The notes beneath the pieces were generated by a model, which worked only from the letters and a program-made list of their open reading frames with translations, made no database searches and was not told the DNA's origin. This document shows positions 23,655 to 49,118 of a stretch of 64,000 nt of DNA, piece after piece (positions within the stretch are counted from its first letter, which is position 1; every line of letters begins with the position of its first letter). This DNA is from Lasiosphaeris hirsuta. Its lineage: Eukaryota; Ascomycota; Sordariomycetes; Sordariales; Lasiosphaeriaceae. Where the stretch lies: contig JAUKUA010000010.1 in NCBI GenBank assembly GCA_030549175.1, forward strand, positions 62,001-126,000, given 5' to 3'. A program made the position numbers and the translations under genes.

Positions 23655-24479
23655 AATAATATAGTCTTCAACATTAGAATTGCCTGATTCTTCTCTTTCA
23701 GAATCACTAAGGTCCTTCCCACTAGCCTCTCTTTGTGAGGTAGGAACCCTTTTAATTTTAATAAAGTACGTGTTAGGGTCAACTTAGACCTTCTTCTCTT
23801 TTAGCCTCTTATACGTTCTAGGCTTTTTTCTATAGCCTCTAATTGATTCGTCGTATTGGCTAGTTAGAAAAACTACGATATCAAAGGCTTTTATGGCCTT
23901 GTGGAGGAAAAGCCAGTCATTGGCAGTCCGTTTCTAGCTGGCTAGAAAAACCTACCCCTGAACACGGAAATCTTTCGGCTGTTTAGGAGTAAACTACATA
24001 GGCCGGCCCTCCAAATATTTACTTAAAATAGTATTTTAAACTTCTTAAAGGTTTATAGAAACTGTGGAAGTTACTTAACTAACGTTACCATTAGAATTCT
24101 TAATAATGAGGCTCTTACTTAAGAACTTTTTAACTAATTTTAATATTAAATTTAGTTATTTCATAGACCTTAACTTACTAGTAATATTTTAAAAAAGTCT
24201 TCTTTTTAGTAATAGTACTTTTGTAAAAGTTAGAAATAATCTTATTATACCTAACTTTATATTAAGTCTTTAAAAGATTAAAAATAAATAAATTTAAAGA
24301 CTAGAGAATATAAGAAGTATAGGTTAATAAAAAGAATAATTATATATGATTTAAAAATATTAACTATATAAATTCTTTAGTAATATAACTACTGTAGCTA
24401 TTTAAAATAAAAAGATATTTTTTTAAAAGATTACCTAGCTAAGTCTTTAAAAGAAAGATATTACAGAACTAAGCGATAG
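23655..24479 (-). pseudogene. pogo-like transposase, C-terminal part (rest of DDE domain and tail)
   Basis: Continuing on the minus strand from 24479, the frame reads ITIA.FCNIFLLKT, then LFILNSYSSYITKEFI (about 24370-24410, the DGHxSHxTKEF block with D and H altered by C-to-T/G-to-A changes). Next come TYTSYIL.SLNLFIFNLLKT (PPHTSH.LQPLD block) and ITKKKTFLKYY. A long nearly open tail (about 23655-23945) reads NDWLFLHKAIKAFDIVVFL and RGYRKKPRTYKRLKEKK, basic and acid-rich. The tail is less RIP-mutated than the DDE part. It is no longer functional. Confidence 0.75.
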
Positions 24480-24504
24480 TAATATTAAAAGGTAGCCTTG
24501 GTAC
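24479..24504 (-). other. Left boundary of the array: nonanucleotide plus one hairpin arm
   Basis: On the minus strand this reads GTACCAAGGCTA, CCTTT, TAATATTAC, then pogo sequence TATCGC. Only the arm belonging to unit A is present; the partner arm is replaced by transposase sequence. The replicon/chromosome junction therefore lies within the nonanucleotide. Confidence 0.8.
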
Positions 24505-24755
24505 TAACTCCACGTCTTGAAGATATCCTCCATAAACAATATGTATATAATAAATAAGACGTAGTCCATAAAAAACATAAAACACGTTACCGTGTTTTAT
24601 ATTAACAATGCCGAACGTATTAATTAGACTATCGTAATTGTTTGACATAAGTTCCCCTTCTATTGTAGAGATATAAGACTTTTAAGATTTTCTTAATTTA
24701 TTTATTATATTAGATTCATCCTTTAATATATATACTTCACTAAAGAGATAGCCTA

Positions 24756-26106
24756 TGTCACACTGGTAAGCTCACCTAGGTCAACAGGATCACTAACCTC
24801 CTTGACTAAGCTACACTACCGGTACGAACTATACATACCATACATACACAAACTACCCATCGACCCACGGATCAACGTGGAGAAGGGGAAACTACCAAGG
24901 GAGATAGCCACAATATGGTTCAACCCCGAAACGTAATGGGAGATAGCCACAACGTAGTTCAACCCCGGATGCAAACGTGTAGCTAGGGACCTATTCGGTC
25001 GGTACACGGGTCAGCGGATCCCCACGTACGACCACGGGTCGCGACGGGATACCCAGAACCACTCATAAGCCGGAGTAGCCGTATAACAGATCTCGCCCGC
25101 TCTAGGTAACGTCATTAGACTTTAGATTTGTCATGGAAAAACTACTTAACTTTAACATTGTAATCAGGGCCTGTACAGTTAGCTAAGATCTTACAGCTGG
25201 TCTTTCGAATCATAGACCTCTCCGCTATTGCTGGCATTCCTTTGGAAGACCTAGAACCTAACGTTCTCCGGAGTTTAGCTTCAGTAGTAACAGGTAGCCG
25301 TGACCCCCGCGTGTAAGTCATGAAGGGAACCATTACTGTAACAGCTAATATAGGATCGACCTAACAGTACTATAGCTAACGTAAGTACTAAGGACGTAAA
25401 GGAACACCTATAACAATAGACACTATATTACTAGAACTGTATAGATAAGTACTAATACCGGCCGTAGACCGACGTATAATGGGTCGGCTTTACTTAGCTT
25501 ATAGCTACGGATTTATAGGGTGTGAAAGACGGGCGGCTAGAAAGGAGATTCGGAACCGACGGATGGTTAGAAGGATCCTTTAGATATTTTGGTATCTTTA
25601 TATCTTATATATAGCCTTTTATAAAAGAGTAGGTATGCTACGATAGATCTTCGAAAAGAAGTTTCCTAGTTCTCTTTAGACAAACCTAAAAAGATTATTA
25701 GCTAAACTTTAGTAAAGTTAAGAGGTAATATAACCTTATAATCCCTTCTATTTCTCTTAACTTATAACTACGAGATATTATATTTTATCGTCTGTTAGAT
25801 CATTTCATCTTCTTAAACCTCCTTCTCCCTAACTTTTTACCACTTTATATTGTAATAGTTAACATTTTGCTGTTTTATTCTAAAGCTCTAAATTAGACCT
25901 TATACTTATTAGCCTTATGAAGATTAACTTCTTAAGTTTGTCGTATGAAAGCTCTGAATTAGACTAATAGTAATTGTCGGGGTAGTTTGTTAAACGGTTA
26001 AGTCGAGAATTAGAAAAAGATTAAAGTTCTATAGTCTGATTCTTTATTTGATATATTACCTTATGGTTATTATATCTTAGACCTTCGGTAGCTAGTCTAT
26101 GTCACA
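24756..26106 (+). repeat. 5' LTR of the gypsy element in unit A
   Basis: 1351 bp. The first about 500 bases are moderately mutated and the rest more so. The minus-strand open frame at 25142-25333 is an antisense reading also visible in other LTR copies and is not regarded as a gene. Confidence 0.88.
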
Positions 26107-29100
26107 GATAATCTTTTTATTCCACGAACAAATTCGTTATTTACTACATGTCATTTATAATAACCAGTAACCCCTCGTCATACTTAGCCGTTATATAGGG
26201 TAGGGAAATCGAACCCTTTTCCAATATCGACCTTATAATCTAGAAACTCCCTAAGATGGAAATTAAGACTATCAAAAGGTTTCCTATACTCTTATCAAGT
26301 ACGTAAACTATAACGAAACTACTCTAATAGTTTATAAACCTCTATAACTAAGTTACTAAGGCATATAAGGAACTTTACTTTTTTATAGTTAATACATATG
26401 AAAATATAGAGAGGCTTAATTTATTCGTTTTAACGTTTACTACCCTCGTCACCGACTACTAGTCGATAGTCTAGTATGTTAAAACAAATTAATAAATCTT
26501 AGAAAGTATATAGTAAGAATTAGAAGCCTCTTATACTACCTTCGGCATTAAGGTTAACTAAAAATTAACTTAATTTACTACTTAGACGGCCTAACGTAAA
26601 AAATCTCTTAACCTCGTTATTACCCGTACTAAGATATTTCGTAAGGAAATTACTAAGTAAAAGTAATAATAAGTACGATAAGTATAAGAGTAGGAATTAT
26701 GGGCTAAGGAATAAAATGCCGAGCTTATCCGAGTTAAGGAACTCCTTCGAATCTAGGAAGAAAAACAAGCTCGTTAAGACTAACATAACATAAAGTTTAG
26801 CTACTAGTTTACTATAGCCTAAAGCTAGCTTAATTTATTTATAGTCTCATAATAACTAGGGATATCACGTATCTTAAAAGATTAAAAACTATTTGATCAG
26901 CTTAAGAACTATTTTAATAACTTTGTTAAGGAAGCCTTTTATATTGAGGTTGACTTAAGTAAGACTTTATAATAAGAAATAGATTATCTAAAGAGCTATG
27001 ATCCGTTTATAGAAAATACTTTTTATTAAATCCTTATAATAGACGTTATAACCGTCTAAAAAATCAGTTTTTATATAATACTTCGATTATAACGAGAATC
27101 TTGTCTTAGACCATAACCTCTAACAAAGGGCTACTTAAGAAATCTCCGTATGAGCCTAGAGGTAGGTTGATAGTATATAAAATTCTGATATTAAAATAAG
27201 AAGTAGAAACACTAGAGGAAATTTACCTTCCCGTTATATTAAGATAGAAACTTTACTATTCCTTGATAACAATAATAACTTAGACGACGATTTATATCGA
27301 GTAAGTTTACCCCCTAGACTATTAAGAGGCATACCAGAGCTATTAAGACCTCTAGGACCTTAGAGTCTAAGCTTTTAAAACTTATTATTATAACTTCTAC
27401 TTGACCCTATGGTAGTTTTTCTTGACCTTATTTATATAAATTAAGATTTAATTTATAATAATATAAATATAATCTGTAAATCCTGTGATTAAGGCGCCGC
27501 CGTAACTATGGCAAAATCCGAAAAATATAACAAGAAGAATAAAGATAAGTTTGAGATATGGTAACGTTTCGTTAAGGAGTATTTTAGTGTCCATAAATGA
27601 AGTTTCCTCGACGACAAGGTTAAAATTAACTTTGTTAGTACTTTTATAAAAAATATTACCCTCGAATAGTATTAAAAAAGAAGAACGTAGATCAAAAAGC
27701 TTAGCTTGGTAGATTAATAGAATAACTATGCTACCATTATAGTCAAACGTTTCTGTGACCTAGTACATAAAGCTAAGGACTATGAATCTATGAAGGCTCT
27801 GACTTACGATAAAGATGTAAATGAATATGTGACAAAGTTCTAAGAACTTAATTATATTATTAATCTTAGTAGCCAGGTATTATAATCGTTAGTTACGAAT
27901 ATTATCTCCGAAGTTATAATAGAACTAATCTATTTACGTATCGGATATCTTCCTTTTGACGATACTAACTTTCTCGAAGTAGTCATTATAGCCGGTTTGA
28001 TTTATAAAGACAAAATGAAAAACCGTAGAATTAATTATAAGGCTAAGTAGGGAAAAGGAGAGTCTACTTTAAATAATATGAAGTGTTTAAAGAAGGATAA
28101 TTATAAAGAAGAAACTAATATCTCTAGCTTCCGTCTCGGTCTAGTATCTGTTAAGAAGGTTAAATAAGGCCTAAAATGGAAGTAATAAGATTAAAAAGAC
28201 AAAGTATTGATACCTATCTAAATAAAGTACTAATAAACTTATAAAGAAGCTACTATTAAGATAGACAAAGCTGACATTAATAAGAATAAAGTAAGTAAGA
28301 GATGTTACTACTATAGACATTAAGGCTATAACATCCTTAAATGTTATATTAGGAAAACCGAGGATAGTAAGGATATTCCTTAGCTACCTAAGAAAATCTC
28401 TAGAGTTAAGACTAAACGTAGAAGAAGTGATGATAACGAGAAATAAGAAGATACCTCGTCCCGACCCCCTAAGAAGGTTAAGGTCTTTATAATAATAGAA
28501 AGGAATTACCCTAAGCTTTTCCCTTGAATTATTAAACTATCTAATAGTAAGGATCCGTTAGATTTTTAAGTAGTATCCCGAAACTCGTAATATCGGGACC
28601 TACGCCTCACTATGCCATAACCTTTATTAAGAAGTATGTTCATAATAACATTAAGGAGCCTTTTCTTAAGAAGGCTAAACAAAACTATAAACTGTATTAT
28701 AGAAGTCGAAAAATCGTTCCTATAATAATTATCTACTACAGAGCCGAGGAAATCTCTGTCTGGGTACTTCTTAACCTTAGAGCTTTAGGTCTGGTTATAA
28801 ATAAAGACTTTGTTAAAAAATGAAATATCTCTTATGTATATAAAACGATCTTAAAACCCTTAGAAGCCTTTAATAGAATAATCAACCTTAAATCGGGTAA
28901 GAAATATACTAAGGAAATCGTTCTATGGTACTAAGTAAAATACTTCTCTTGTATTATGTTTGAAATCTCTTCCTTTAATATAAAATGTAATATCCTTTTA
29001 CTATATTAGTAGCTATAATAATACTAACTAAATTATTTATGAGATCTTAACATTTTAAAAGTAGCCTTTGTCTTAGACTATTATTACTAAAACTGTACTT

Positions 29101-32100
29101 CTCTTATAGTATTAAGAAACAAAAGCTTAATTGTTAGTATTATTAAATCTTATATCGTAAAAATCTCTAAAAGATTTAGGATGTTTATACCTTTGGCGTT
29201 TCTTAAAGTAGCCTAGTAGCTTCTAAACCATCAGCTATAAGACCATATAATTAATATTATTAGAGACGAGAAGTTTCTATAGAAACCTCTCTACCTTATA
29301 TTACTCTTAGAAAAGAAAGTCTTTCGTAAATAACTTGACTAAATACTTAAGGAAGGTAAGATATAGGAATTAAAATCACTCTATTCTTTACTTATCTTCT
29401 TTATAAATAAGGAAGTATCTATAGAAAAGGTAGCTACTAGGGACTTAGAAAACCTCCGACCTATAGTCGACTATTAAAAGATTAATAAACGAACTGTGAA
29501 AAATTAATATCTATTACCTTTCATAACCGAGCTTTAAGATACCCTCGTTAGATTTGTTATTTTTATAAAAATAGATTTAAAATTAGACCTTAACTTAATT
29601 AAGATAAAAGAGGGACACGAGTAGAAAACGGCGTTCTAAACCTGTTATGGGCTCTTCGAGTTTAACATAATATCTTTTAGCCTTATTAATGTTTCCGTTA
29701 CTTTCTAAGGTATAATAAATCATATCTTTTAAGACCTTATCAACTAAGGCCTCTTGTTTTACATTAACGACCTTCTTATTTATACGAGTTTTAAAGAAGA
29801 ATACAATAAAATTGTTATTAAAGTTCTTAAACGGCTTTAAAAGTATAACCTCGCTATTAACCTCTCTAAGTATATATAAGATATTAAGGAACTAGAATAC
29901 CTAGGCTATATTATTAATACTAAAGGTATTGTAATGTCAAAGGATAAGGTTAAATGTATTCTTTTATAGAAATAGCTAAAACCGGTAAAAGGAGTTTAGT
30001 AATTTAATAGATTTACGAATTTCTATAAGTACTATATCAAAAGCTACTTATATATTACCAAACCTCTAACCGATTTTACTAACTTAACCGAGAAATCTTA
30101 AACATAGAATAATTAAATAAATATAATATTTAAAGTATTAAAAAAAGCCTGTATTAAAGCCCTTATTCTAGTTTATTTCGACCTTAATAAACTACCTATT
30201 ATTAAACTTAATACTTTAGACTACGTGTTAAGAGAGATAATGTTATAGAAGTAAGATGATGGTAAGATATATCTTATGGCGTTTTACTTAAGAAAACTAA
30301 TCCTTACGGAAATTAACTACGAGATCTATAACAAGAAACTCCTAACGATAGTTAACTACTTCTAACGTTAAAGATACTACCTCGAAGGTATAAAATACTA
30401 TATCAAAGTCTTCTCGGACTATTATAATTTAAAATACTTCTAGACTACAAAAGTCCTTAACTACCGCTAAGCCCACTAGACTTAATAAACTTACTACCTT
30501 CGACTTCGTCATTAATTTCTGTCCTGGCATATAGAATGTTAAGGTTAATACTTCCTCACGATGTAAAGAGTACCTTCTTAAAGGGAGAGATAAAAACTAG
30601 CTGATAACCTCGGTTTTAAATAAGGAACATTTCTCCTATTTAAAAACTTTAACGTTTATACTTTTAAAAGCTTACGTCTATAATATTTTAATACTAAAAT
30701 AAAACGAGGAATTTCTTAAGTAAATTAAAGCTATTATTCCTATAGATAAGATATATTAAAAGGCTTTAGTTTCCCTTAGAAAAGACGTAACTAACGAAGA
30801 CGGAATCTTATTTATAAAGAATCGTATCTAAGTTCTTAATAACAAAGAACTTAAGATCTAGATTATCTGTTTAAAATATAATACTAAAGTGGTAGGCTAT
30901 ATAGGTATAGATAAGACCGTTAAACTTATTAGACAGCATATATACTAGTAGAACCTTAAAAAGAACGCCACTAAGTTTATATGCTCTTGTCCTAAGTGTT
31001 AAAGTAATAAGCTAAGACGTTACCTTTCCTTTAAACTACTTTATCTTATTGAGTTAAAATACTTTCCTTAGAAGCTTATTTTATTAAACTTTATAACGGA
31101 CCTTCCTCTCTTTAATAAATGAAGTTTTATCTAGGTCATTATCGATATCTTTACTAAAATGATATACTTTATTCTTTTAAAGGATAATACTAAGAAGACT
31201 AAAGACTTGATTTCCTTCTTTATTTATGAATGTTAGAAATATTATAATATACCTACTAGTATTATTTCTAATCGGGATTTATAGTTTAATATAGGCCTTT
31301 AGTATAACTTTCTTAAATACATAGGAATCAAACTAAGGATATTAACCTCGTTCCATCCCGAAATAGATAGTTAGACTAAACGTCTTAATCAGTACATCAA
31401 GGCTTATTTTAAAGCCTTTGTTAATTATAAGATAAATAACTAGGATATTCTATTATCTATAGCTAAATTCACATAAAATAACGCTAGATCGACTTCTATT
31501 AGTAACTCTCTTTTCTATACTAACTACGGTTACTATCTAGTTTATAAACAATCTACTAGATAAGTCTATACGTAATCTACATAGCAAAATCATAGCTTAC
31601 TAGATAATGATGGTCTACGAGAATTTCTATAAAACTTTTTAAGAATCTCAAGAACGGATAAAGAAATACGTAGATCGGAAGTAAATAGAAGTACCTTCCT
31701 TTGAAGAAAAGTAATTAGTATTACTTAATGTATGGAATATTAAAACCAAGAGACCTTTCAAAAAGTTAGATAGAAAGTTATTTAGCTTATTTAAGATTTT
31801 TAAGATAGTATCTCCTATAGCCGTGAAACTTGAACTCCCGGAGCGTTAGAAAATTCATCTTACTTTTTATATATCTTTTATTAAACCTTTTTAAACTGGC
31901 TCTTAACTGATCTCTGACCTTATTTAGGTCTTGGAGTAAGTAGGAGATGTTTACTTTGAGGAATTTGTAATAGAGAAAATCATAAACTTCCGTACTAAAA
32001 AAGAGATAGTAGAATATTATGTCAAATGGAAGAAATACCTTAATAAGAAAGATTAGACTTGGGAACCATATAAGTACTTCTCTGATATCTAGGAACTTTA

Positions 32101-32191
32101 GAACTTCTACGTCAAATATCTATGTAAGCTTAAGGACCCTAGGGTTACTAACCTAGGGATTCGGGGCGAATTTACCAAAGAGGGGAGATAG
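26107..32191 (+). pseudogene. Decayed gag-pol of the gypsy element in unit A
   Basis: The plus strand reads, in order, gag (possible start ATG at 27508, MAKSEKYNKKNKD), then a zinc knuckle at about 28297-28344 with the first and last cysteines kept and the middle C and H now tyrosine. RT follows with LRPIVDY (29454-29474) and YIND at 29760-29771, where YIDD is expected. RNase H is at about 30170-30560 (LNTLDYVLRE, VFSDYYNLKYF). Integrase spans about 30880-31700 (ITDLP, SNRDL.F, FHPEIDS.TKRLNQ). Last is a chromodomain at 31958-32140 (EEFVIEKI, EYYVKWKKY, TWEPYKYF). The residue changes fit RIP transitions. Upstream of 27508 the region 26107-27480 also looks coding in places, so the gag start is uncertain. 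Confidence 0.85.
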
Positions 32192-33546
32192 TATTATATT
32201 AGTAAGCTTACCTAGGTAAATAAGGTTATTAACCTCCTTGACTAAGCTATATTACCGGTACGAATTATATATACCATACATATATAAACTACCTATCGAT
32301 CTACGGATTAACATAGAGAAGGGGAAATTACCAAAGGAGATAGTTACAATATAGTTCAACCCCGAAACGTAATAGGAAATAGCTATAACGTAGTTTAACC
32401 CCAGATGTAAACGTGTAGCTAGGGACCTATTCGGTTGGTATATAGGTTAGTAGATCTCTACGTATAACTATAGATTACGATATGATATCTAGAACTACTC
32501 ACAAGCTAAAGTAGTAGTATAACGGATCTTATCTACGCTAGGTAATGTTATTAAACTTTAGATTTGTTATGGATAAGCTACTTAACCTTAATATTGTAAT
32601 TAGGGCTTATATAGTCAGCTAAGATATTACAGCTAGTCTTTCAAATCATAGACCTCTCTACTATCGCTAGCATTCCTTTGGAAGACTTAAAACTCGATGT
32701 TCTTTAGAGTCTAGCTTTAGTAGTGACAAGTAGCCGCGACTCCCGTATATAAGTTATAAAGGAAACCGTTACTATGACAGCCAACATAAGATCGACCTAA
32801 TAGTACTATAGCTAACATAAGTACTAAGGACGTGAATGAACACTTACAACGATAGATACTATGCTACTAGAGCTGTATGGATAAGTACTAATACTGGCCG
32901 TGAACCGACGTATGATAGGCCAGCTTCACTTAGCTTATAGCTACGGATTTGTAGGGCACGAGAGACAGGCGGCTAGAAGGGAGATTCGGGACCGACCGGC
33001 GGCTATGAGGATCCTTTAGGTATTTTGATATCTTTGTATCTTATACATAGCCTTCTATAAAAGAGTAGGTATGTTGCGATGGATCCTCAAGAGGAAGAAG
33101 CTCCCTAGTTCTCTTTGGACAAACCTAGAAAGATTATTAATTAAACTTCATTGAAGTTAAAGGGTAATATAACCTTGTGAACCCTTCTGTTTCCCCTGAC
33201 TTGTAACTACGAAATATTATGTTTTATCGTCTGTTAGATCATTCCATCTCCCTGAACCTCTTTCTCCCTGGCTCTCTACTACTTTACATTACGACAGTTA
33301 ACTCCCTTACCATTCTATTCTAAAGCTCTAAATCGGACCTTGTACTTATTTGCCTTGCGAAGATCAACTCTCTAAGTTCGTCGTGTGAAAGCTTTGAACT
33401 AGACCAACAGTAATTGTTGGGGTAGTTCGCTGAACGGTTGAGTCGAGAGTTAGGAAAAGGTTAAAGCTCTACAGTCTGATTCTCCATTTGATATATCACC
33501 TTGTGGTTGTCACACCCCAGACCTTCGGTGGCTGGCCTGTGTCACA
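32192..33546 (+). repeat. 3' LTR of the gypsy element in unit A
   Basis: 1355 bp. The last about 350 bases (33200-33546) keep C/G-rich sequence, whereas the first part is heavily mutated. The pattern is complementary to that of the 5' LTR of the same element. Confidence 0.88.
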
Positions 33547-33559
33547 GCCTATCTCCAAA

Positions 33560-34180
33560 TCCATCAGGTCTGTTTATGACATAATCCGAATAACTAAAAT
33601 ATAAAATACCTAAACTAACAATCGTACCAAAAGGCCTAGAAGGAATAGTATAGTCCATAATATAGCCGGACAATGTTATAATACTTACTAAAAAAAACGC
33701 AACTTCCGTTTAGCTATAAAATCAATCTTTCTTACGTATCCTAGATACCTATTAAACACGGACATATTTAATATAGTAATAAACTTATTGGGATTCGAAG
33801 ATTACTTTATAGTACGTAAGAGTTATTAAGACGGTACCTTACATTTTTACGTAATCGAAGTCTTTCTTAAGACCAAAAATATAAAGAACGTCCGTTATTT
33901 CGATATTAACCGGTATTACTTATAAATCAACAAAACTTAAAGCCTTATCGTAACGTGGAAATATCTTTATAAAAAAGAAAATAGGTCGGAACATATCGGC
34001 GGTAACCTCGTCATCCTTAAAACGGTATGTGTTATAATATAAGATAACGTATAGAAAAATACCGCTAAGGTTAAGACAAAAAATAACCTTTTTAAATATT
34101 AAAAGTAGATATATTATAACGATTTATATACTTATATACTAACATTAAAGCTTTTATAAACGATATATTCAAGGTTAAAC
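33560..34180 (+). pseudogene. Rep-like HUH endonuclease of unit A (CRESS DNA replicon type), RIP-broken
   Basis: One plus-strand frame shows the three Rep endonuclease motifs in order. Motif I reads FLTYP (33728-33742). Motif II reads HFY (33842-33850, the second metal-ligand histidine altered to tyrosine). Motif III reads WKYLYKKE (33956-33979), containing the nicking tyrosine and Y-x-x-K. Spacings of 38 and 40 residues match geminivirus/genomovirus-type Reps. Rep nicks the origin nonanucleotide to start rolling-circle replication in the nucleus. Several TAA/TAG stops are present, so no protein can be made. A Walker A motif for the usual helicase domain was not found. The gypsy insertion lies about 60 bp upstream. 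Confidence 0.8.
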
Positions 34181-35399
34181 AAAGATAGTATATTTTATTA
34201 TAACTAGATAGCCTTTAAGAAATCTTAAAGGAAATAATAAAATAGGTAGATAAAAATCTCTATAACCTATGAAAATAAATACTTTCTTATAATAAAATAA
34301 TAAGACATATTACTTAGATATCTTTTATTAGATATTTTAAGTTTATTATTATTAAATATTACTAAGTTACTTAGAAAATGAATTTAAAACTTAGTAATTA
34401 TAAATTTAATTATTATTTTTATTTATGTTAATAAAATTATAAAAGATAATATAAATTCGAAGTTTAAATAATCATTATTATATATAAGAGTATTAAAATA
34501 ATATATATTAATATTATAAGTAAATTTCAAGATGCTAAACTTTTTTATATATATAAATAAAAGTTGCTAAATAAGAACTATCTTATATTTATATTTATAA
34601 TATAGACTTATAAAAATCTTATAATAAACTTAATATAGATTAGTTAAAAAGAAATTATATCTTTATAAAATAAGTATTACTAAAGATATTTATTTTAATA
34701 TAAGATAAATTAGAAAGATTTTTTTATAAATTAAAAATGATAAAGAATTTTTATATTTATTTAGTTATTTCACTTATATATCAGAAATATTAGATAAAAT
34801 ATAAAATATAATATTTAATATATAGTTATCCTATTAAATATTTTCTAAGTTATGAACTTTTATTATAATTTTCATTTTTTAACTAAGTTAAATAAAAAAA
34901 GATTAAGAATTTAATATTAACATATTATATAACTTATAAATAAAACTTTTATCTAACAAAATATATATCTTAACTTCTTTCTCTACCAACTAATATATTA
35001 GAAGATATATATCAATATAATATAACAAACTTTCAATAAAAAATAAATATATATAATTTAATGTTTACAAATTTTTACTAAATAATAATACTTAAGTAAA
35101 TAGAAATAACTAGATATTATTCTTTAACTTAATCTTATTAAAATTATAAGTTATAAATAAATTTTATATTAAAATGTTAACATAATAAGTCTAAGAATAA
35201 ATAATATTAAATTATAATTTTATATTATATATCTTAATTATATTCATATTAATGTTATATCCTGGTAATATCTCTAAACTAAGAACTAAGAAAACATAAG
35301 AATTTATATTAATATATATATCTTTCAAAAAGTATAAATCATCTTTATGACATAACTAGCATTTTATATACTTTATAATATTAATAATTACTCTAACTT

Positions 35400-35960
35400 T
35401 ATAAGCAAACTAATAACTAAGTATATTAAAGTAACATCTTTATTAAAGACCATTTAAAAACTCATAACCTATTATTAACGATATAAAAAAGATAATGAAA
35501 CGAAGTAACAGTTAATATAACTAGAAAAAACCTTAACCTAAGAAAGAAATAACTAAAAAGATATTTAATTTTATAATACTTTTACTACTTAAGCTTTTAT
35601 TAATTAACTAATTACTAATCATATAGTAAGTTAAGAAGATAATAGTAGTAATTTTAAAATGAAAATAATCTATATATTTGACTAAAAGAGAATACGTAAA
35701 ACGAACGTTTTGAAAATTAAACGTAAGAATCGTATATAAGTAAAAAGAGAGATATATATTAAAAAGTTAAAATAGTTATAATAATAATAACTATTACTAA
35801 ACTAACTAATATAAACTATATGATAAATAGTATCTGGTATATGTATTAATACGATGAAAACTGTACGGTACGATATATAGAACGATATAAGCAATGGTAA
35901 GGATGACAAAAACCTCCTCATCAGTAACATAGACAAGGTATGAAAACTAACAAAAAATTC
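35400..35960 (+). pseudogene. Second broken frame of unit A, unknown function
   Basis: This is the counterpart of the unit B frame at 40230-40801. It is more strongly AT-shifted, with a higher stop density. Recognition rests on its collinear position between Rep and origin. Confidence 0.45.
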
Positions 35961-36300
35961 CTAAGGGAACAGTTTATATATAAGAAGTTAATATAAGAGG
36001 AAAAAAAGAACAAGCAGAGGAGGCTAAATAACTAAAAGGTTAACTACTTAACTATAGTATGAGAGGTCTGGTTGATATTTTACCGGTCTAATAAGTTGTT
36101 TTATGTATATATTAATTAAAAAAATATCTTTTGGGAAACGTATATAGTAGCTACGTAATAATTATGTACGACCTCGTATCTTATAGATACTAGCTAACCA
36201 TGAGAACTTAATTACCTAAGTCTAAACAATTGTAATCTTCTAACATTGGATGTAACTATATAAGTATACTATCTATTAGATCGTATACCGTAAATATCTA

Positions 36301-36386
36301 AGGATATCTCCTATAACATACTATTAGGACAGAGGATATTAGGATATCAATACCAAGGCTATAATATTAAAAGGTAGCCTTAGTAC
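36301..36386 (-). promoter_or_regulatory. Replicon origin at the A/B junction: stem-loop with nonanucleotide and iterons
   Basis: Arms ATACCAAGGCTA (36350-36361) and TAGCCTTAGTAC (36375-36386) can pair in 10 of 12 positions; the two failures are transition-type. On the minus strand the loop is CCTTT followed by TAATATTA, and the ninth base is T here but C at both array ends. The nonanucleotide sits at the 3' side of the loop against the stem, as in geminivirus origins. The nick would fall between 36362 and 36363. GGATA/GGACA repeats precede it (36301-36346). The Rep frame lies on the opposite (complementary) sense, also as in that group. Confidence 0.8.
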
Positions 36387-36662
36387 TAACTCTACGTCTT
36401 GAAGATGTCTCTTACAAATAACATGTATATAATAAATAAGACATGGTCTATAAAAAAACATAAAATACGTTACCGTATCTTATATTAACAATACCGAACG
36501 TATCAGTTAAGCTGTTGTAATTATTCGATATAAGTTCCCCTTCTATCATAGAGATACTAAGCTTCTAAGATTTCCTCAATTCATTTATTATACCAGATTT
36601 ATCTTTCAATGTATATACTTAACCAGAGATAGCCTATCTCTAAACCCGTCTAGTCTATTTGT

Positions 36663-37270
36663 GACATAATCTAAATAACTAAAACGTAAGATACCTAAAC
36701 TAACGGTCGTATTAAAAGGTCTAGAAGGAATGGTATAGTATATAACGTAGCTAGACAATGTTATAATGCCTATTAGAAAAAAACGCGACTTCTACTTAGT
36801 TACTAAATTAGTTTTTCTTATATATCCTAGATACCTATTAGACATAGATACCTTCAACGTGGTAATAAACTCATTTAGATTTAAGGATTACTTTATAGTA
36901 CGTGAGAGTTATTAAGACGATATCCCGTACTTTTACATAATTGGGATCTTTCCTAAAACGAAAAATATAAAGAACGTCCTTTACTTTGATATTAGCCAGT
37001 ACTACCTATAGATCAGTAAAACTCGGAGCCTTATATTAACGTGGAAATATCTCCATAAAAAAGAAGACAGGTCCAAACATATCGGCGGCGACCTCGTCAT
37101 CCCGAAAATGGCACGTGCCGTAATGTAAGATAACGTATGGAAAGATGCCGTTAAAGCTAAAACAAAAGACGGCCTTTTTAAAACATTAAAAGTAGGTATA
37201 TTATAACAGTTTACATGTTCTTATATTAACATCAAAGCCTATGTAAACAATATGTTTAAGGCCGAAGGTA
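36663..37270 (+). pseudogene. Rep-like HUH endonuclease of unit B, RIP-broken
   Basis: This is the same frame as in unit A. It starts near PKLTVVLKGLEGM and continues RKKRDFYLVTKLVFLIYPRY, with motif I as FLIYP at 36814-36828. Motif II reads YFY (36928-36936, both histidine positions tyrosine). Motif III reads WKYLHKKED (37042-37068). Then follow HIGGDLVI and a W.DA..AKT..-type segment (about 37150-37190) that in CRESS Reps links the endonuclease to the helicase. The frame can be followed weakly to about 38200 without a recognisable P-loop. It is broken by TAA/TAG stops and therefore inactive. The copy differs from unit A by many transitions, so each was mutated independently. Confidence 0.82.
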
Positions 37271-38246
37271 AATAATATGTCTTTTATAATTAAACGGCTT
37301 TTAAGAAATTTTAAAAGAAATAATAAAATAGATAAAGAAAAACCTCCATAACCTACTATATAAGTACTCTTATAAAATAAGATATATTACTTAGGTATTC
37401 TTTATCGGATGTTTTAAGTCTATTATTATCAAAATGTAAGGTTTTTCTTTCCTCTCTTAGGAGAGCCTCTTTTTAAATTTTAAAATAAAATATTACTAAG
37501 CCGCTTAGGGGACGCCTTTCCCATGTTTAAGTACCTAAGATCCGAAAACAAATTTAGGACTTAGTGATTATAACTTTAATTACTAACATTTCTTTTAACG
37601 AGACAAAAGCTATTAGTCTTGTTTAAACTAATAAGGCTATAGAAAACGATATAGGTACAAAATTTAAGTAACTATTATTATATATAAAGATATTAAAACG
37701 GTATATTACTTAATAAAACTAAAAAATATTTTTAACGACATTTTACTAAGTGATAACGATATACGTTGATACTATAAATGGATTCTAAGATACTAACTCT
37801 CTTTTATATATATAAATAAGTATAAACTAAAAATAGAAGTTATTAAATAGGAGTTATTATATATTTATATTTATAATAAAGACCTAAAAGAATCTTATGA
37901 TAAAATTAATATAAATTAGTTAAAGAGAAATTATATCTTTATTTAAATTACTAGCCTTCTCTTTATAAAACGAGTATTACTAGGGATACTTACCTTAATA
38001 TAAGATAGATTAAAAAGGTTTTTATCTTACATCTAAGAAGATAAGAAATTTCTATAGTTATTTAATTATCTTCTTTTTAATATATAATAGTCCTAACTTA
38101 ATTAATCTTCATAGTTAATAAAGTAGTTTTTATAATATCTTTATTTCTTTATATAAGAATAATAATAGATATTTCTAATTATTACATATTAAAACGAGAT
38201 GACTTTATAAAAATATCTTTATCTTTTATCTTTGGTTTTACCTTTG

Positions 38247-39566
38247 TGTAACATAGGCCGGCTTACGAAGGTCTAGGGTGTGACAACTACAAGGTAAGAT
38301 ATCAAATGAAGAGTCAGTCTGTAGAGCTTTAACCTTTTCCTAACTCTCGACTTAACCGTTTAACGAACTACCCCGACAATTGCTGTTGGTCTAGTTCAGA
38401 GCTTTTACACGACGAACTTAAAGACTTGATCTTCACAAGGCTAATAAGTACAAGGTCCGATTCAGAGGTTTAGAACAGAACGGTAAGGGTTAACTGTCGT
38501 AATATAAAGTGGTAGAGAGCTAGGGAGAAGGAGGTTCAGGGAGATGGAATGATCTAACAAAGGATAAGACATAATACTTCGTAGTTATAAGTCAGGAGAA
38601 ACAAAAAGGTTTACAAGGTTATATTACCTCTTAGCTTTACTGAAGTTTAGCTAATAATCTTTCTAGGTTTGTCTAAAAAGAACTAGGGAGCTTCTTCCTC
38701 TCGAGGATCCGTCGTAACGTACCTGTCCTACTTATAGAAGGCTATGTATAAGATACAAGGATACAAAAATACCTAAAGGATCGTCCTAGCCGCCTGTCGG
38801 TCCCAAATCTCCTTTCTAGCCGCCCGTCTCTCACGTCCTACAAATCCGTAGTTACAAACTAAGTGAAGCCGGCTCATCATACGTTGATCCGCGGCCGGTA
38901 TTAGTACTTATCCATACAGCTCTAGCGGCATAGTATCCATCGCTGTAGGTGTTTCTTCACGTCCTTGGTACTTTCGTTAGCTATAGTATTGTTAGGTCGA
39001 TCCCATGTCAGCTGTCACAGTAACGGTTCCCTTCATGACTTATACGCGGGGGTCACGGCTACCTGTCACCACTGAAGCTAGACTCCGGAGAACGTCGGAT
39101 TCCAGGTCTTCTAACGGAATGCCAGTAATAGCGGGGAGGTCTATGATTCGAAAGACCAGCTGTAGGATCTGGGCTGACTATGTAGGCTCTGACCACGATG
39201 CTGAGGTTAAATGGCTTGTCCATGACAAATCTGAAGTCTGATAACGTTGCCTAGCACGGGTAAGATCCGTTGTACGGTTACTCTGGCTTGTGAGTGGTTC
39301 TGGGCATTCCGTCGTAACCCGTAGGTGCTTAGGAGAATCCGCTGACCTGTGTGTCGGCTGAATAGGCTATTAGCTACACGTGGGATCATGTCCCGAGGTT
39401 GAGCCACGTTGTGGCCATCCTCTGTGATAGTTCCCTTATCCTCATGATCTATGATAGATGTTCGTGGGTCAATGGGTGTGTATGTATGTGGTTCGTGCCA
39501 CTGGTGTAGGGCGAGGTCAAGGAGGTCAGTGACCCTGTTGACCTAGGTGAGCCTACCAGTGTGACA
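38247..39566 (-). mobile_element. Solo LTR of the gypsy family inside unit B
   Basis: It is a 1320-bp LTR from TGTAACATAGG to CAGTGTGACA, opposite in orientation to the element in unit A. The flanks CTTTG (38242-38246) and TCTTG (39567-39571) differ by two C/T changes and probably derive from one 5-bp duplication. The right part (38880-39566) is nearly unmutated, which is why open frames appear there on both strands. Confidence 0.82.
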
Positions 39567-40229
39567 TCTTGACATAATTAACAGCTATTCTACTTATATA
39601 TAAGAAACATTAAATAAAATATAAAACATAACATTTATATATTAAATATTATTTAAACTGTTATCTCTTATTACATCTTTCTTTTTTTAACTAAGCTAAA
39701 TAGAAAAGAGTTAAATTTCTAATGTTAATATATTACATAGTTTATAAATAAAACTTTTATCTAATTAAATACATATCTTAACTTCTTTCTATACTAGCTA
39801 ATATATAAGGGGGCATATATCTATGTAAGTTAATAATTCCTCGTTAAAAAATAAATATATATAATCTAAAGTTTATAACTTTTTACTAAATAATAATACC
39901 TAGATAGATAAGAAAGGCTAGATATTATCTTTTAATATAATCCCATTAGAATTATAAGTTGTAAATAAACTTTATATTAATATAAGAGATAGCTAAAACG
40001 TTAAAATTCTAATATAACAAGTTAAAAAATAAATAATATTAAACTGTAATTTCATCCTTTTCGTCTTAATCATATTTGTATTAGTATCGTTACTTTATAA
40101 TACCTTCGAATTAAAAACTAAGAGGACATAAGAATCTATACTAACATATATATCCCTAAAAAAACTATAAATAGTCCTTATTACATAAATATTATTTTAT
40201 ATATTTCATAGTACCAGTAATTATTTTAA

Positions 40230-40801
40230 CTTTATAAATAAATTAGTAATTAGATACGTTACAGTAACATCTCTATTAAGGGCCGTCTAAAAACCTCTAA
40301 CCTATTTTTACTAATATAAGAAAGATTAAGAAACGGTACGACGGTTAGCGTATCTAGAAGATACCTTAACTTAAGAAAGAAATAACTAAAGAAAATATTT
40401 AATTTTATAACACTTTTACTACCTAAGCTCTAATTAATTAGTTAATTACTCATCACATAGTAAGTTAAGAGAATGACAGTAACAGTTTCGGAACGAGAGT
40501 AACCCGTATATCTAACTAAAAGAAAATATATAATATGAGTATCTATAAAATCAAACCTAAAGATTATACATTAGTAGAAAGAAAGACATACGTTAGAAAG
40601 TTAAAACGGTTATAATAATATCGACAATTACTAAACTAGCTGATATAAACCACATGATAGATAGTATCTACTATATATATTAATACTGCTGATAAGGACG
40701 TCGTCGATATAACGAAAACCGTACGGTATGATATGCGGAACGATATAGGCGATGGTAAGGACGACGAAAATCTCCTCATCAGTAGCGTGGATAAGGCATA
40801 A
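40230..40801 (+). pseudogene. Second broken frame of unit B, unknown function
   Basis: A single plus-strand frame, interrupted only by TAA, TAG and one TGA, includes IFTNIRKIKKRYDG, NMSIYKIKPKDYTLVER, KTYVRKLKRL and, before the final TAA at 40799, DVVDITKTVRYDMRNDIG and DDENLLISSVDKA. The C-terminal part is acidic and the middle basic. The antisense reading is Ser/Leu-rich and looks like a shadow. I do not recognise the family; it does not resemble a capsid protein that I can identify. The same stretch is present in unit A at about 35400-35960. Confidence 0.5.
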
Positions 40802-40887
40802 GAATTAATAAAAAATTCCCAAGGGAACGGTTCATATATAATGAGTTGATATAAGAGGAAAAAAAGAACAAGGAGACGGAGGCTAAA

Positions 40888-40935
40888 TAGCCGAGCGGTT
40901 AACTACTTGACCATAGCGCGATAGGTTCGGTTGAT
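40888..40935 (+). other. tRNA-like A-box/B-box sequence in unit B
   Basis: TAGCCGAGCGGTTA (40888-40901) matches a pol III A box of Leu/Ser-type tRNAs. GGTTCGGTTGAT (40924-40935) resembles a B box at tRNA-like distance. A complete cloverleaf cannot be closed by eye. Unit A carries the RIP-mutated equivalent near 36026-36075. Confidence 0.3.
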
Positions 40936-41160
40936 ATTTTGCCAATGTGACAAGTCGTCCTATGTATACACCAATTGAAAAAATGCCTCACGGAAAACGT
41001 ACATAGTGGCTACGTAATAATTACGTACGACCCCGCACCGTATAGGCACCGGCCAACCACGAGGATTCAATCCCCCGGGTCTGGACGATCGTAATCTCCC
41101 AACATCGGATGTAAGTACATAAGTACGCCATCTGTCGAATCACACACCGTAAACATCCGA

Positions 41161-41228
41161 GGACATCTCCTGTGACACACTGCTAGGACAGAGGACATTA
41201 GGACATCAACACCAAGGCTGTAATATTA
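41161..41228 (-). promoter_or_regulatory. Right array boundary: four GGACA iterons, hairpin arm and TAATATTAC
   Basis: GGACA occurs at 41161, 41186, 41193 and 41201, directly before the arm ACACCAAGGCTG (41209-41220) and GTAATATTA (41220-41228, TAATATTAC on the minus strand). Rep proteins of geminivirus type bind short iterated motifs in this position. The partner arm is missing because pogo sequence begins here. Confidence 0.75.
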
Positions 41229-41980
41229 TTATTAAACTAACCGTTTTTAATAGATTTTCATCTCTAATCCTTAAATAACTATAGATCTTATAGATATTAT
41301 TATTATTAAAGTCTTCTATCCTTAAAAATAATGACTAAGTTTAAATATTAATTATTAGTAGAGATATATTTAATAATTAATATCTAAATTTAATTTCCTT
41401 TCTTCTTTTTTTAAAATTTCTTTCTTTCTTTTATGTTAATAACTAAACTATTATGTCTAATACTAAAAGTAATATTAGTTTGTTTATATTATATCGGTAC
41501 TAAGTTAGAATAGTCTTTATACATAGAAGCTTTAAATAATTAAACTAAGGTTAAATAATAGCCTTATATGTTTAATTAGTACTATTTACATACATTTTCT
41601 ATAGCTTAATAGTAAAAATAGATAGATTTCTAGTAAAAAACTGGCTAGTCTAATACTTTCTAAAGGTCTCGTCGTCTCTAAGTATTCTTCTAGTTAGTCT
41701 CCGAATTTAGGCGTGGGTTAGAGGATAACCAAGCAACCCCTAAAATAGAATCTATTCGGTTAAACGTTCTTCCATGGCTAGAGAGAGCTTTTGATTAATA
41801 ATCTAGGCCGCAGAGGCTGGCTCGGAACCATAAACCCGATTAAAGAGAGTAGTAGGAGGTATACTATGGTATTTCGCAGAGTTACGGAATAAGCTAGTTT
41901 TTATATACTCCGCCGGTACATTTTGTAAATCAAACTTCGTAAATCGCTTTATTATTCAATTCTAAATCGAATAAAGAAGA
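41228..41980 (-). pseudogene. pogo-like transposase, N-terminal part (HTH and CENP-B-type DNA-binding domains, start of DDE)
   Basis: The minus strand from about 41980 downward reads AKYHSIPPTTLFNRVYGSEPASA (psq-type helix-turn-helix), then LSLAMEERLTE..L..GLLGYPLTHA and RRILRDDETF..YTSQFF-type sequence ending TRNLSI (CENP-B/Tc5 HTH domain). The beginning of the DDE domain follows, ending NLVIIFKDRRL and KNG.FNNN at the insertion point. Stops are TAA/TAG or TGG-derived. The frame carries on without shift at 24479 on the other side of the inserted array if the shared TAATATTAC is counted once. Confidence 0.8.
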
Positions 41981-43552: not shown

Positions 43553-45195
43553 TTACATAACACACACAGAAGAAAAGGAGCTAAATATTCTTACTATCGT
43601 CCCAGCTTTCCACGGCCGACTTTTCTTCAACATATATACGTTTTGAGGCCTTTGACTCCCAGTCGTTCCAACGGCCGCGTCTGGAGACGCAGTGGTATCC
43701 CCGTCTTCTTGAGTCAGAGTCTGCGAAAGCCGCCTGCCCGGGAGGCTGGCAAGGCTGGACTGGGTCATGGACGCATACGAGCGTGATAAACTTGGCACTT
43801 GTCCATCACGTCCTGAAGTGTCCCAGCTGCGCTTCCGTGGTCGCCCCCTCGGTGGCTCATCCCAACTGTCGCAATCGTGCCCGTCTTCAATGATACCTCC
43901 GTCGTCGATGATATCCCCATCGTCTGGCGAGTAAACATCTCGGCCAATATCCTGGCGGCAGCCATGAGTCGACACGGATCTCTTCGTTGGGCTAACACTC
44001 CGGCTCTGGGACCGCGTAGACTCAAAAATCTGAGCCCTAGACCCGACATCCAGTCCTCTCAAGCTCTGCGTTTCGGTCTCGCCTTTTGCCTCGTCCCAAA
44101 GACGCACAGCGTAAGTGAGACTCGACCCGAAAAAGGGAATATGCTCGTCTGTGAACAAGGACCAGGCAAAACGTGCGAAGAGGCACGCGACGCTGATGCC
44201 GCGGATTGGCTGCGGCGAGCGGTTGTGGTACAGACCAATCAGCTCGGGTGAGCCCGACGGCAGCAGCACGTGTGTGACAAGTTTGGCAGACTGAGATACG
44301 TCTGTGCCGAATCGCTTGGGCACAAAGGTGAAGCGCCGGGCATCAAAGAGATGATGGAGGTCCTTACGAAGAATGAGCATGTTCTTGTCGTCGTTGATCG
44401 CTGAGATCTCCAATGGTCGCCGGCAGTATCTGCAACGGAATAATTGTCAGTTTCCGTCAGTTTAGCAATGGCAACACCACACCAAGGAAAGGGACATCAG
44501 GAGAGGTTCCATTACCTATCCATCCCATTCGAAACAAACCAAAGCCTTTCTTTAACCGGAACGAGGTGTGCATTCTCAAGGGCGTCCATATACTCAGACA
44601 CGCGGCAGGTCATGTCACGATCCAACGCCGCGGCAGGCCCCTTCAGAGTCGGACGCGGCGGGATGAACTCGGGCAACCAAAGGTTCCTCCACAGCGGCGG
44701 CAAGTTACCGTGCGGCGCGCCGTCCTCATCAAAGCCGCCGTGAGGGAAGCGCCAGTGATAAAACGAGGGGATGACGGGGTATTTGACTAAAACCGAGACG
44801 ATTATGGTTAGCCGAGCTGGCTTGACGGACTTTTAACAAAACGAGGACAAGAGGGGAGGAGGCATACATAACAATGGATCACATCCCTCGACGCAGAAAA
44901 AGAATTCGCGTCCACGCAGCAGCCCGTCCGGCGGGCGGTCGATTCGCCGGAGACCATCGTCCTCGGCTCCGTCTTTCTGCGTCAAGTATCCGTTGTCCCA
45001 GCCTATGTCGGCAACTATACAGCAAGACGTTAACGCAACGTCAAAGTCAAGCCCGCCGTCGCCGTCTGCGGCCATGAGCACGAGCAGGTGGGGAGCGGAG
45101 TTGGGGTAGGCTGGGTGCCGAAACCGGACCTCGCGCTGTGCTATCCCCAGACCGTGCGTTATAGCCGGCGGCGTAAAGGGCGGGAGGGTAGCCAT
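43553..45195 (-). CDS. HNH-nuclease-domain protein, three exons
   Basis: Join (minus strand) 45195-44868, 44786-44516, 44429-43553; 1476 nt, 491 residues. Intron 1 (44787-44867) has GTATGC, a GCTAAC branch site and TTTTAG. Intron 2 (44430-44515) has GTAATG and TTGCAG. The spliced frame gives a fungal HNH_2-type domain: LDFDVALTSCCIVA and PPDGLLRG in exon 1, HWRFPH, then AHLVP (H183) followed by ER.WF, KNMLILRKDLHHLFD (N216, H225/H226) and FTFVPKR. The three residues H, N and H fit the metal/nucleophile set. The C-terminal 200 residues are acidic and serine-rich, probably disordered. The biological role of this ascomycete family is not established. It lies 1.1 kb from the transposon island but shows no RIP stops. 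Confidence 0.85.
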
Positions 45196-46951: not shown

Positions 46952-48895
46952 TCACCCGAATCTGCCCTCGAGATGGTTCCAGTCTGGACTGTCACCTCTC
47001 AATAACTCCCACATAGGATGGACGTCCTCACCCTCGCTCAGGTGGGAGTGGAGCCAGATACAGACCCCGACTCGGCGCCAATGTGGGAGCCCAAGGCCAT
47101 CGCTCTCGACCAAGATGAGACCGGTGTTGAAGGATTCGTCTCCGAAGTCACAGCGACCCATCAGTAGAACCGTCAACGGTATCTTTTCGCACCTCTGGGC
47201 CACCCAAGCCGCCAAGTCGTCGTGGTTATTTTCGTCGCTCAGACTAAAGACATTGACCTTATCCAGCTGTGGAGGCAACGGATCAAGGTGAGTGCCGCGG
47301 TCTAGGGCAAGTAGATGTGCTGAGTTGTGTGAGTTAACGTGCATCCTCCACATGGACTGCTTCAGCTTCTCGGTGTATTTCGGTCGATTCGTTCCGTGCC
47401 ACGCTGACTGTAGCGTCTTGAATGAACAAGCCTTCCCGGAGAGGTGAGCCCAGAGATGGTTACCTTTTTTCTCGGAGGAGAGTTGGCAGAGGTTGAAGTG
47501 GCGTATCATAATGTTGACCTCGAGCCGCCCTCCACTTGGCCATCCAAACATGTCTCCTCGGTCTAATATCCAGGGGACCACGGAGCTGGACTGCAAGCAC
47601 CAGCTCTTACCCGGCGCCGGTGCATCCAAATGCACAAACATTTGGCTGAGGACCGGATACAATCGCATGACCTTGGAGGTAAATTCGTCTTGGAGTTCTT
47701 TAAGAGTGTAATCGTGGGTTGACGTCGGGTCAGCAGCTCTCCCGACGCGGAAACTTGGGCCAAGGATCTGCATAATTCCGTAGACCCGGTCCAGGGGATT
47801 TCTGGGATTTCGATTCGAGGATATTGCCAGCAGTCCCATCGGGTTGTTATGCCAAAGAGCTCCGAGCCCGCTGTTGTGGAGTAGGCTCATCAGCTCTGAC
47901 AGGCTTGGGGTGCTGAGTGGCTTCCTGGTCATGTCGCTCCATACCAGAATGTTGTTTGCCCTTAGCAGAATATCATTGAGCTCCATGCATCTCCATCCTA
48001 TTTGTCTTCCTTCGGCACAAACTCTCGATTCTCGAGACAATAAGATGGCCTTGTGGCGTAGATAGCCCTCCTGAAGCGTCCAAAGAGATTTGAACCACGG
48101 GTCCTCGGTAAGTTCCTTCAGCGCCCGAGTTGCGACAACGGCCCATTGATGAACTTCGCAAGACAGACTGTATGGCTCCATATCCAAGCCGGAGCCACCG
48201 ACGTCAAAGTCTGACAGGATCCGGGTCATCTCTGTGTGAGAGAGATGGCTCAACCAGACGTACACATGCTCAGCCCTTTGAAAGATACGAGCCTGCCTGC
48301 CTATTTCCGCCCATTTGACGGGCGAATCACGTTGCTCGATGCAAGCAACATCGAGCCAGAGAAACTGGTATGCCCGCTGCTGTCGTTCGAGGAACCTGAG
48401 AAGTGGCCCGACCAGCCAGCTGGCGGGGGTTTTCTTCAGCGCCCTTGGACTTCGGAGATGATCAAACTCGTAGTGTCGGTCGGTGGTCCCCATCGTTTGG
48501 CGGATGGTGCGTCGGAATTCGTCCACGGTGAAGTGTTTTTCTGGGTCGATGCGGGGGACACTCCAGGGAACGCCTTGGATGGGTAAAGCTTTCACGTGTG
48601 GCTTGAGTTTAGGATTCCGCAACTCAAATTTGCCCCAGGTGTATGATATGGCGACATATCTCGGATTTCGAAATCCACCGTATATATTACCAGGACTCCA
48701 TTTATGCGATGTCATTGTTGGCACATGAAGCAAGCGTCTTGGCCAGTCAGAATCGTCGTCGAAGTCATCATCGTTATGATCAATTGGTGCGGGAGCAGCA
48801 GAAGCCAGACTGAGGTTGAAGTTGAAGGCGCAAAGCAGAAGCGTGACTATTGGCACAGCTAGCCAGGGAGAAAAAAGAAAGAAAGCGGCACTCAT
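46952..48895 (-). CDS. HET-domain (heterokaryon incompatibility) protein, 647 aa
   Basis: This is a single open frame. Residues 1-33 start hydrophobic (SPWLAVPIVTLLLCAF), like a signal anchor, followed by an acidic linker. HET motifs: RLLHVPTMTS then PRYVAISYTWG (residues 78-88), FLWLDVACIEQ (178-188), VYVWLSH, and WFKSLWTLQEG (267-277), then NPLDRVYGIMQIL. HET domains mediate non-self recognition and programmed cell death after fusion of unlike hyphae. The gene is divergent from, and paralogous to, the 49119-51494 gene, with 223 bp between start codons. The hydrophobic N-terminus is unusual for a HET protein and may be a membrane anchor or a mis-set start. Confidence 0.85.
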   Translation of the reverse strand: MSAAFFLFSPWLAVPIVTLLLCAFNFNLSLASAAPAPIDHNDDDFDDDSDWPRRLLHVPTMTSHKWSPGNIYGGFRNPRYVAISYTWGKFELRNPKLKPHVKALPIQGVPWSVPRIDPEKHFTVDEFRRTIRQTMGTTDRHYEFDHLRSPRALKKTPASWLVGPLLRFLERQQRAYQFLWLDVACIEQRDSPVKWAEIGRQARIFQRAEHVYVWLSHLSHTEMTRILSDFDVGGSGLDMEPYSLSCEVHQWAVVATRALKELTEDPWFKSLWTLQEGYLRHKAILLSRESRVCAEGRQIGWRCMELNDILLRANNILVWSDMTRKPLSTPSLSELMSLLHNSGLGALWHNNPMGLLAISSNRNPRNPLDRVYGIMQILGPSFRVGRAADPTSTHDYTLKELQDEFTSKVMRLYPVLSQMFVHLDAPAPGKSWCLQSSSVVPWILDRGDMFGWPSGGRLEVNIMIRHFNLCQLSSEKKGNHLWAHLSGKACSFKTLQSAWHGTNRPKYTEKLKQSMWRMHVNSHNSAHLLALDRGTHLDPLPPQLDKVNVFSLSDENNHDDLAAWVAQRCEKIPLTVLLMGRCDFGDESFNTGLILVESDGLGLPHWRRVGVCIWLHSHLSEGEDVHPMWELLRGDSPDWNHLEGRFG

Positions 48896-49118
48896 CGAAT
48901 TCGGCTGTGATAAAGTAGGTGCGGTGCATTTGTGGAATTTTGAAGAACTCGTTGAGCTGAGGAAGAGTGTAGAAAGTGGGAGACTGACGGTCCGTCTTCA
49001 GCTAGGTTCCGAAGCAGCACCTGGAGTGGTGAATCAGGTGATCATCAACCAACTCCAACATTTGCTAGGTACATAATAGGCCGCCCAGAGCCAAACCACG
49101 CATAAACCCCGCACGAAA
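48896..49118. promoter_or_regulatory. Shared intergenic region of the divergent HET pair
   Basis: 223 bp separate the two ATG codons (up to 328 bp if the right gene starts at 49224). It must hold both promoters. No individual binding site can be named. Confidence 0.5.

Follow-up and report, generated by a model that had tools for sequence, protein, structure and literature searches.

Fossil copies of an element with a geminivirus-type Rep, bounded by the origin nonanucleotide, in the genome of the fungus Lasiosphaeris hirsuta

Two Rep-encoding units and their decayed copies

Within a 64,000-nucleotide stretch of the Lasiosphaeris hirsuta genome (contig JAUKUA010000010.1, positions 62,001 to 126,000; hereafter the window), positions 24480-41228 hold two collinear direct (head-to-tail) units which encode a geminivirus-type Rep and are broken up by insertions of the long terminal repeat (LTR) type. 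This collinearity, proposed in an initial annotation of the sequence, was borne out when repeat families were compared: 24480-24746 pairs with 36362-36629 (spacing ~11882) and 33546-36318 pairs with 36631-41177 (start spacings 3085-4859), the two pairings ranging from 72 to 86% identity. The later insertions recognised by the same annotation also stood, as one LTR-type insertion in unit 1, called from its anatomy (terminal repeats and flanks), and a single LTR in unit 2 (~38247-39566), around which no exact target duplication was found. What had been missed is that the units are bounded by the word that serves geminiviruses as origin, and that the array as a whole has empty counterpart sites. 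The refined borders are octamers at 24480-24487 (left), 36362-36369 (junction) and 41221-41228 (right), and the features of the array are as follows.

24480..24487, strand not assigned: left end of unit 1, octamer TAATATTA; taken together with G24479, its minus strand gives TAATATTAC
24480..24755, plus strand: unit 1, first part, matching 36362-36629
24494..24502, plus strand: stem half AGCCTTGGT adjoining the left end, identical in 6 of the 7 outer five-prime ends in the genome (AGCCTTAGT in the seventh, that of copy F)
~24756..33546, plus strand: LTR-type insertion in unit 1, with direct terminal repeats of ~1.37 kb and GCCTA on both flanks
33552..36361, plus strand: unit 1, second part, including the broken rep
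33704..33913, plus strand: Gemini_AL1 match of unit 1 (24.8 bits against a cut-off of 24; one internal stop)
36352..36384, strand not assigned: unit junction, with the stem ACCAAGGCT / AGCCTTAGT around octamer 36362-36369; minus-strand hairpin
36362..38246, plus strand: unit 2, first part, including the broken rep (match to database protein P0001 at 36787-37113)
~38247..39566, minus strand: single LTR of the family of the unit 1 insertion, in inverted orientation, splitting unit 2
39572..41228, plus strand: unit 2, second part, in which no protein family was found
41160..41205, plus strand: four AGGACA, iteron-like, beside the stem
41211..41219, plus strand: stem half ACCAAGGCT adjoining the right end
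41221..41228, strand not assigned: right end octamer TAATATTA, part of a minus-strand TAATATTAC at 41220-41228

The whole 44.4-Mb assembly of 14 contigs, in which the window is part of contig C2, was then searched for the ends of the element. With at most 3 mismatches, 8 five-prime and 12 three-prime motifs were found, one of each being the unit junction; the motifs are absent from the rest of the 44.4 Mb, and the reversed end patterns used as control gave 0 matches in it. We named the copies A1 and A2 (units 1 and 2 of the window), B, C, D and K (also on C2), E, F and J (C13), G (C7), H (C12) and I (C14), with H, I, J and K lacking the five-prime end motif. Ten of the 12 copies lie on the small contigs C2, C13 and C14, which make up 5.4% of the assembly (binomial 1.3e-11, assuming independent copies) and may be accessory chromosomes.

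Repeat-induced point mutation (RIP) leaves a pattern in which CpA is depleted and TpA gained. Among 15 rows of copy sequence, 14 have TpA/ApT of 1.12-1.40 and (CpA+TpG)/(ApC+GpT) of 0.38-0.72, the exception being K (0.82 and 1.07). The GC content is 20-31% in 11 of the 15, 39% in both G rows, 40% in J and 42% in K (row G5 includes ~150 bases beyond the element). The dinucleotide ratios, together with RIP-type transitions, support the earlier proposal that the units were inactivated by RIP-type decay.

The identification of a geminivirus-type Rep, also made in the initial annotation, was confirmed by profile and protein matches. Gemini_AL1 (PF00799) passed its curated cut-off at 4 genome places, window unit 1 included, and in 0 of 14 control genomes; the Rep likeness is therefore beyond chance. 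Gemini_AL1_M, the central domain, exceeded its cut-off in copy G only, just downstream of Gemini_AL1 (28.2 bits, three internal stops), and in none of the 14 control genomes. A stop-free stretch of 125 amino acids in copy G matched Gemini_AL1 at 3.2e-10 and six solved Rep sequences at ~2e-6, and it retrieved P0001, a database protein with a Gemini_AL1 domain, at 1.4e-12 (36% identical over 82% of the piece). P0001 in turn matches the genome at 7 places, including one in each window unit (33695-33982 in unit 1 and 36787-37113 in unit 2), and the FL(T/I)YP and WKYL motifs noticed earlier were located in both: FLTYP at 33728 and WKYL at 33956 in unit 1, FLIYP at 36814 and WKYL at 37042 in unit 2. 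Matches of the Rep piece to the Pfam families REP_ORF2-G2P and Phage_GPA were under cut-off and were disbelieved.

The transversions in the Rep region (388-1020) fall mainly on third codon positions. At positions 1, 2 and 3 they number 1, 2 and 12 between A1 and G, 1, 2 and 10 between A1 and B, 2, 2 and 7 between A2 and G, and 2, 2 and 5 between A2 and B; the binomial values for this bias are 2.9e-4 (A1-G), 0.0016 (A1-B) and 0.039 (A2-G), for comparisons that share lineages and are non-independent. Rep was therefore probably under selection while the lineages diverged, before the decay.

LTR-type insertions of two families occupy a near-identical element position (~1.7-1.88 kb) in copies F and G and at window 38247. 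Two copies, on C13 and C7, contain long internal stretches that might have marked a larger autonomous form; this was rejected, since the C13 stretch is the window's LTR family and the C7 stretch has its own 233-bp direct terminal repeats.

Element ends, origin hairpin and empty sites

At the outer five-prime ends, 7 in number, the sequence is G-TAATATTA-AAAGGTAGCCTTGG, with the octamer exact in 6 (TAATATTG in F) and the preceding G in all 7. The pattern at the 11 outer three-prime ends is ACCAAGGCT-(G/A)-TAATATTA, slightly altered in J and K; here the octamer is exact in 10 (TATTATTA in K), and the base after it is T in 6 ends, C in 4 and G in the remaining one. These ends are retained in copy J despite a transversion divergence of 11%. 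The octamer TAATATTA is its own reverse complement, and the exact nonanucleotide TAATATTAC stands at both ends, on the strand opposite rep, in 5 of the 7 two-ended insertions (A, the window array, with C, D, E and G); the other two show one transition per changed end (B with TAATATTAT at one end, F with CAATATTAC and TAATATTAT). In geminiviruses, Rep cleaves TAATATT*AC within the origin hairpin's loop (PMC7826260).

The stem halves that flank this word at the two ends of the element come together at the unit junction, where a single octamer lies between ACCAAGGCT and AGCCTTAGT. There the minus strand folds into a hairpin of 11 pairs whose 13-base loop contains the octamer; its energy is -6.5 kcal/mol (z -2.78), a value that 3 of 200 shuffles also reached. 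At the junction itself the last base of the nonanucleotide is T. An origin word and a junction hairpin on the strand opposite rep support the origin-bearing replicon that had been postulated. Rows with four AGGACA next to the stem are A2, F, G, H and K (5 of 12), the remaining rows having 0 to 3; when the end of copy G was shuffled, four were reached in 20 of 2000 shuffles, in a test picked after looking. At the 5' end six 5-mers, AT-rich, occur at least 3 times, versus a shuffle mean of 2.9. An extra TAATATTAC, a possible unused target, lies 241 bases to the right of the array (window 41469-41477, minus strand).

Empty sites were sought by joining the flanks of 7 insertions around one octamer and running them against the genome, with 40 candidates scored per search. 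The flanks of B and D belong to one repeat family, here called Y, and those of G and E to two others; 28 of at least 36 listed places were fetched for Y, 27 of 27 for G and 4 of 4 for E, and in all 59 the alignment runs across the site and shows eight bases separating the same flanks. The octamers in Y are TAACGTTA (11), TAACATCA (5), TAATGTTA and TAACATTA (3 each), TAATATTA and TAACGTCA (2 each) and two others (1 each); those in the G family are TGATATTA (12), TGATATTG (5), TAATATTA (4), TGGTATTA (3) and three others (1 each); and those in the E family TAACGTTA (2), TAATATTA (1) and TAATACTA (1). Of the 4 places fetched for the window array as a whole, 3 extend across the site (TAATGTTA, TAGTGTCA and TAGTGTTA, the first gap-free over 308 of 308 positions), the only place fetched for copy F has TAATACTA, and for copy C no empty site was found among the 40 candidates scored per search.

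Because these paralogues align through the site with the same flanks, 63 uninterrupted sites can be said to hold a single related octamer, compared with two at occupied sites, and insertion removed no flanking DNA. A reading of the ends as a duplication of TA, as in mariner-like elements, was rejected because eight bases, not two, separate the flanks of the empty sites. B and D entered family Y at one and the same position but in opposite orientation; judged by eye, the right flank of J falls in the same family and the right flanks of C and H are alike. Family Y is itself represented in the window (for example at 9308-9569), one of at least 36 listed genome places.

Mode of insertion and origin of the tandem

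We consider it likely that the copies are fossils of a mobile element of ~3.5 kb which encoded a geminivirus-type Rep and spread by inserting site-specifically at the cutting word of this type of Rep. That Reps of the family cut this word is established; that the word also serves for insertion we infer from the ends and the empty sites. Insertion at the cutting word suggests a transposon-like process rather than passive integration, with an enzyme moving its element by way of its own origin, and the transposon-like lineage that the initial annotation had offered as an alternative finds support in the same ends and empty target sites. In the mechanism we propose, Rep would cut TAATATT^AC in the hairpin and would then release or copy a strand or circle (a circular or rolling-circle intermediate), which would be joined into a genomic TAATATTAC, origin, transposon end and target being one sequence; a tandem pair would form when the terminal octamer of one element served as the target of a second, and RIP would have broken the copies afterwards. 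With less assurance, we lean towards a wider reading, in which the element represents a class of eukaryotic HUH transposon where a single 9-nucleotide word, the origin nonanucleotide of geminivirus type, is origin, end and target, and where rolling-circle replication and transposition are one reaction.

Several observations weigh against insertion by Rep at its own cutting word. The exact octamer TAATATTA occurs in only 7 of the 63 empty sites, so that the choice of exact sites is something we infer; it stands at both ends of B, D, G and E despite this rarity (product of family frequencies ~2e-4), and 62 of the 63 empty-site octamers are identical to it or need nothing but C-to-T and G-to-A changes to match it, TGATATTC being the exception. 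Therefore either exact sites, often made by RIP, were chosen, or the octamer was brought or repaired by the element, or RIP acted later on both. Since RIP-removable changes at most separate these 62 octamers from TAATATTA, RIP of older repeats may even make landing sites. The base before the octamer is G in copy D versus A in 27 of 28 members of its target family Y, which leans towards a 9-base requirement or an element-borne base. The exact octamer is missing at the left end of F and the right end of K, the z-score of the junction hairpin is modest, and TAATATTAC is not rare in the AT-rich window (6 occurrences versus 2.56 expected; 5 of 100 shuffles reach 6). No intact copy or free circle was found, and two protein scans and one hairpin pattern confirmed no viral relatives in IMG/VR. 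Of the two profile types named as a check in the initial annotation, the Rep endonuclease passed its cut-off at the four places given above but the superfamily 3 helicase (S3H) did not appear, 0 of 55 weak PF00910 matches lying inside any copy in a search limited by RIP and possible introns. Finally, the 3' half has no assigned function, and an unseen second protein could therefore do the joining.

The main rival, which we hold to be unlikely, is a cut-and-paste transposon with terminal inverted repeats (TIRs), an 8-bp target duplication and an unseen DDE transposase, with rep as a passenger. Its ends would be the imperfect inverted repeats seen here, each insertion does double the octamer, the element of Tuber melanosporum carries transposase open reading frames (ORFs) beside rep (PMC3198968), and the unassigned 3' half contains an open minus-strand frame of 207 amino acids in copy G (L022:7456-8076), with overlapping plus-strand frames. 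However, the same octamer is found in at least 5 different target sequences and equals the cutting word of the encoded enzyme type, and the inverted repeats begin at unequal distances from it (6 versus 1 bases). Nor did Pfam find any capsid or transposase family in the stop-free pieces of 42 amino acids or more (38 of 38, from rows G3, G5 and J), although in this decayed sequence RIP may hide one; within these pieces the initial statement that no capsid is recognisable holds. The 207-amino-acid frame had no match in Pfam, PHROGs or NCBIfam, and the 3'-half frames of copy G compared with J gave no clear codon periodicity. Weak matches to DUF6703, RoxA-like_Cyt-c, PutA_N and Sec3-PIP2_bind were under cut-off and were disbelieved.

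Integration of a replicating circle once, as a head-to-tail dimer which then decayed, was the origin first proposed for the array, and we now judge it improbable. The units do share one octamer, and A1, A2 and I group together in 997 of 1000 bootstraps of an RY-coded neighbour-joining tree (10 rows, J and K excluded; 1710 columns, 112 variable). In the same tree, however, A1 joins I in 1000 of 1000 and A2 alone in 0 of 1000, and ten further copies stand elsewhere at the same kind of site. Transversion distances in the 3' part are 1.42% between A1 and I versus 3.11% between A1 and A2, with A2 at 1.9-2.4% from the other main copies; in the 5' part A1 is 2.09% from A2 and 1.77-2.09% from the others. 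The units are thus not closest relatives and insertion as a dimer is unsupported; they belong to one sub-lineage but do not both derive from the same circle, unless unit 1 later gave rise to copy I. One element inserting into the octamer at another's end explains the head-to-tail order with one shared octamer. Repeated passive endogenisation of a geminivirus- or genomovirus-like virus by end joining has in its favour the virus-type Rep and the Rep fossils of many fungi (PMC3198968), but the same ends at 7 of 7 two-ended insertions, the single octamer of the empty sites and the reuse of a target position make it very improbable.

The GC-richer part of the window contains two divergent genes with the HET (heterokaryon incompatibility) domain, at 46955-48997 (minus strand) and 49080-51491 (plus strand), and an HNH_2 protein is encoded at 43556-44446 (minus strand). 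HET proteins are typical of filamentous ascomycetes, and the two found here, with a Pkinase_fungal fragment also in the window, support a fungal host.

Comparison with known systems

With geminivirus and genomovirus replicons the element shares the catalytic and central domains of Rep, TAATATTAC on the strand opposite rep, a hairpin and iteron-like repeats; it differs in that no capsid or S3H helicase was found and in having chromosomal copies at a specific word. Helitrons and IS91-type rolling-circle transposons employ an HUH-type enzyme and insert end-specifically, and the targets of IS91 resemble its origin. The element shares this enzyme type and end-specific insertion. Helitron ends are 5'-TC and CTRR-3', whereas those described here are TAATATTA, and the element has a geminivirus-type Rep, no Rep-helicase fusion having been found in it.

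For Tuber melanosporum, Liu et al. 2011 (PMC3198968) described a geminivirus-like transposon with 37-bp TIRs, no obvious target-site duplication, two transposase ORFs and 42 rep genes or remnants, mostly >95% identical. Both are fungal genomic repeats with a geminivirus-type rep and inverted repeats at their ends, and no ordinary target duplication was noticed in either. As described, they differ in that the ends here are hairpin halves with the nonanucleotide, the empty sites hold an octamer and no transposase was found. The endogenous geminiviral sequences of yam (Filloux et al. 2015, PMC5014472), whose authors speculate that Rep turned to transposition, share tandem units, a hairpin and TAATATTAC, but the available text describes no empty sites or nonanucleotide-bounded insertions. 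More generally, we found no report of nonanucleotide-bounded insertions with empty sites, in which origin, end and target coincide, in the accessible part of the open-access literature.

The relation between the Reps of ssDNA viruses and transposases has so far rested largely on sequence likeness and scattered fossils. Here, the ends, the empty sites and the insertion in two orientations jointly record an element with a geminivirus-type Rep inserting at the word that such Reps cut. If this is true, a virus-type origin can act as a transposon end, which surveys of other fungal genomes can test directly.
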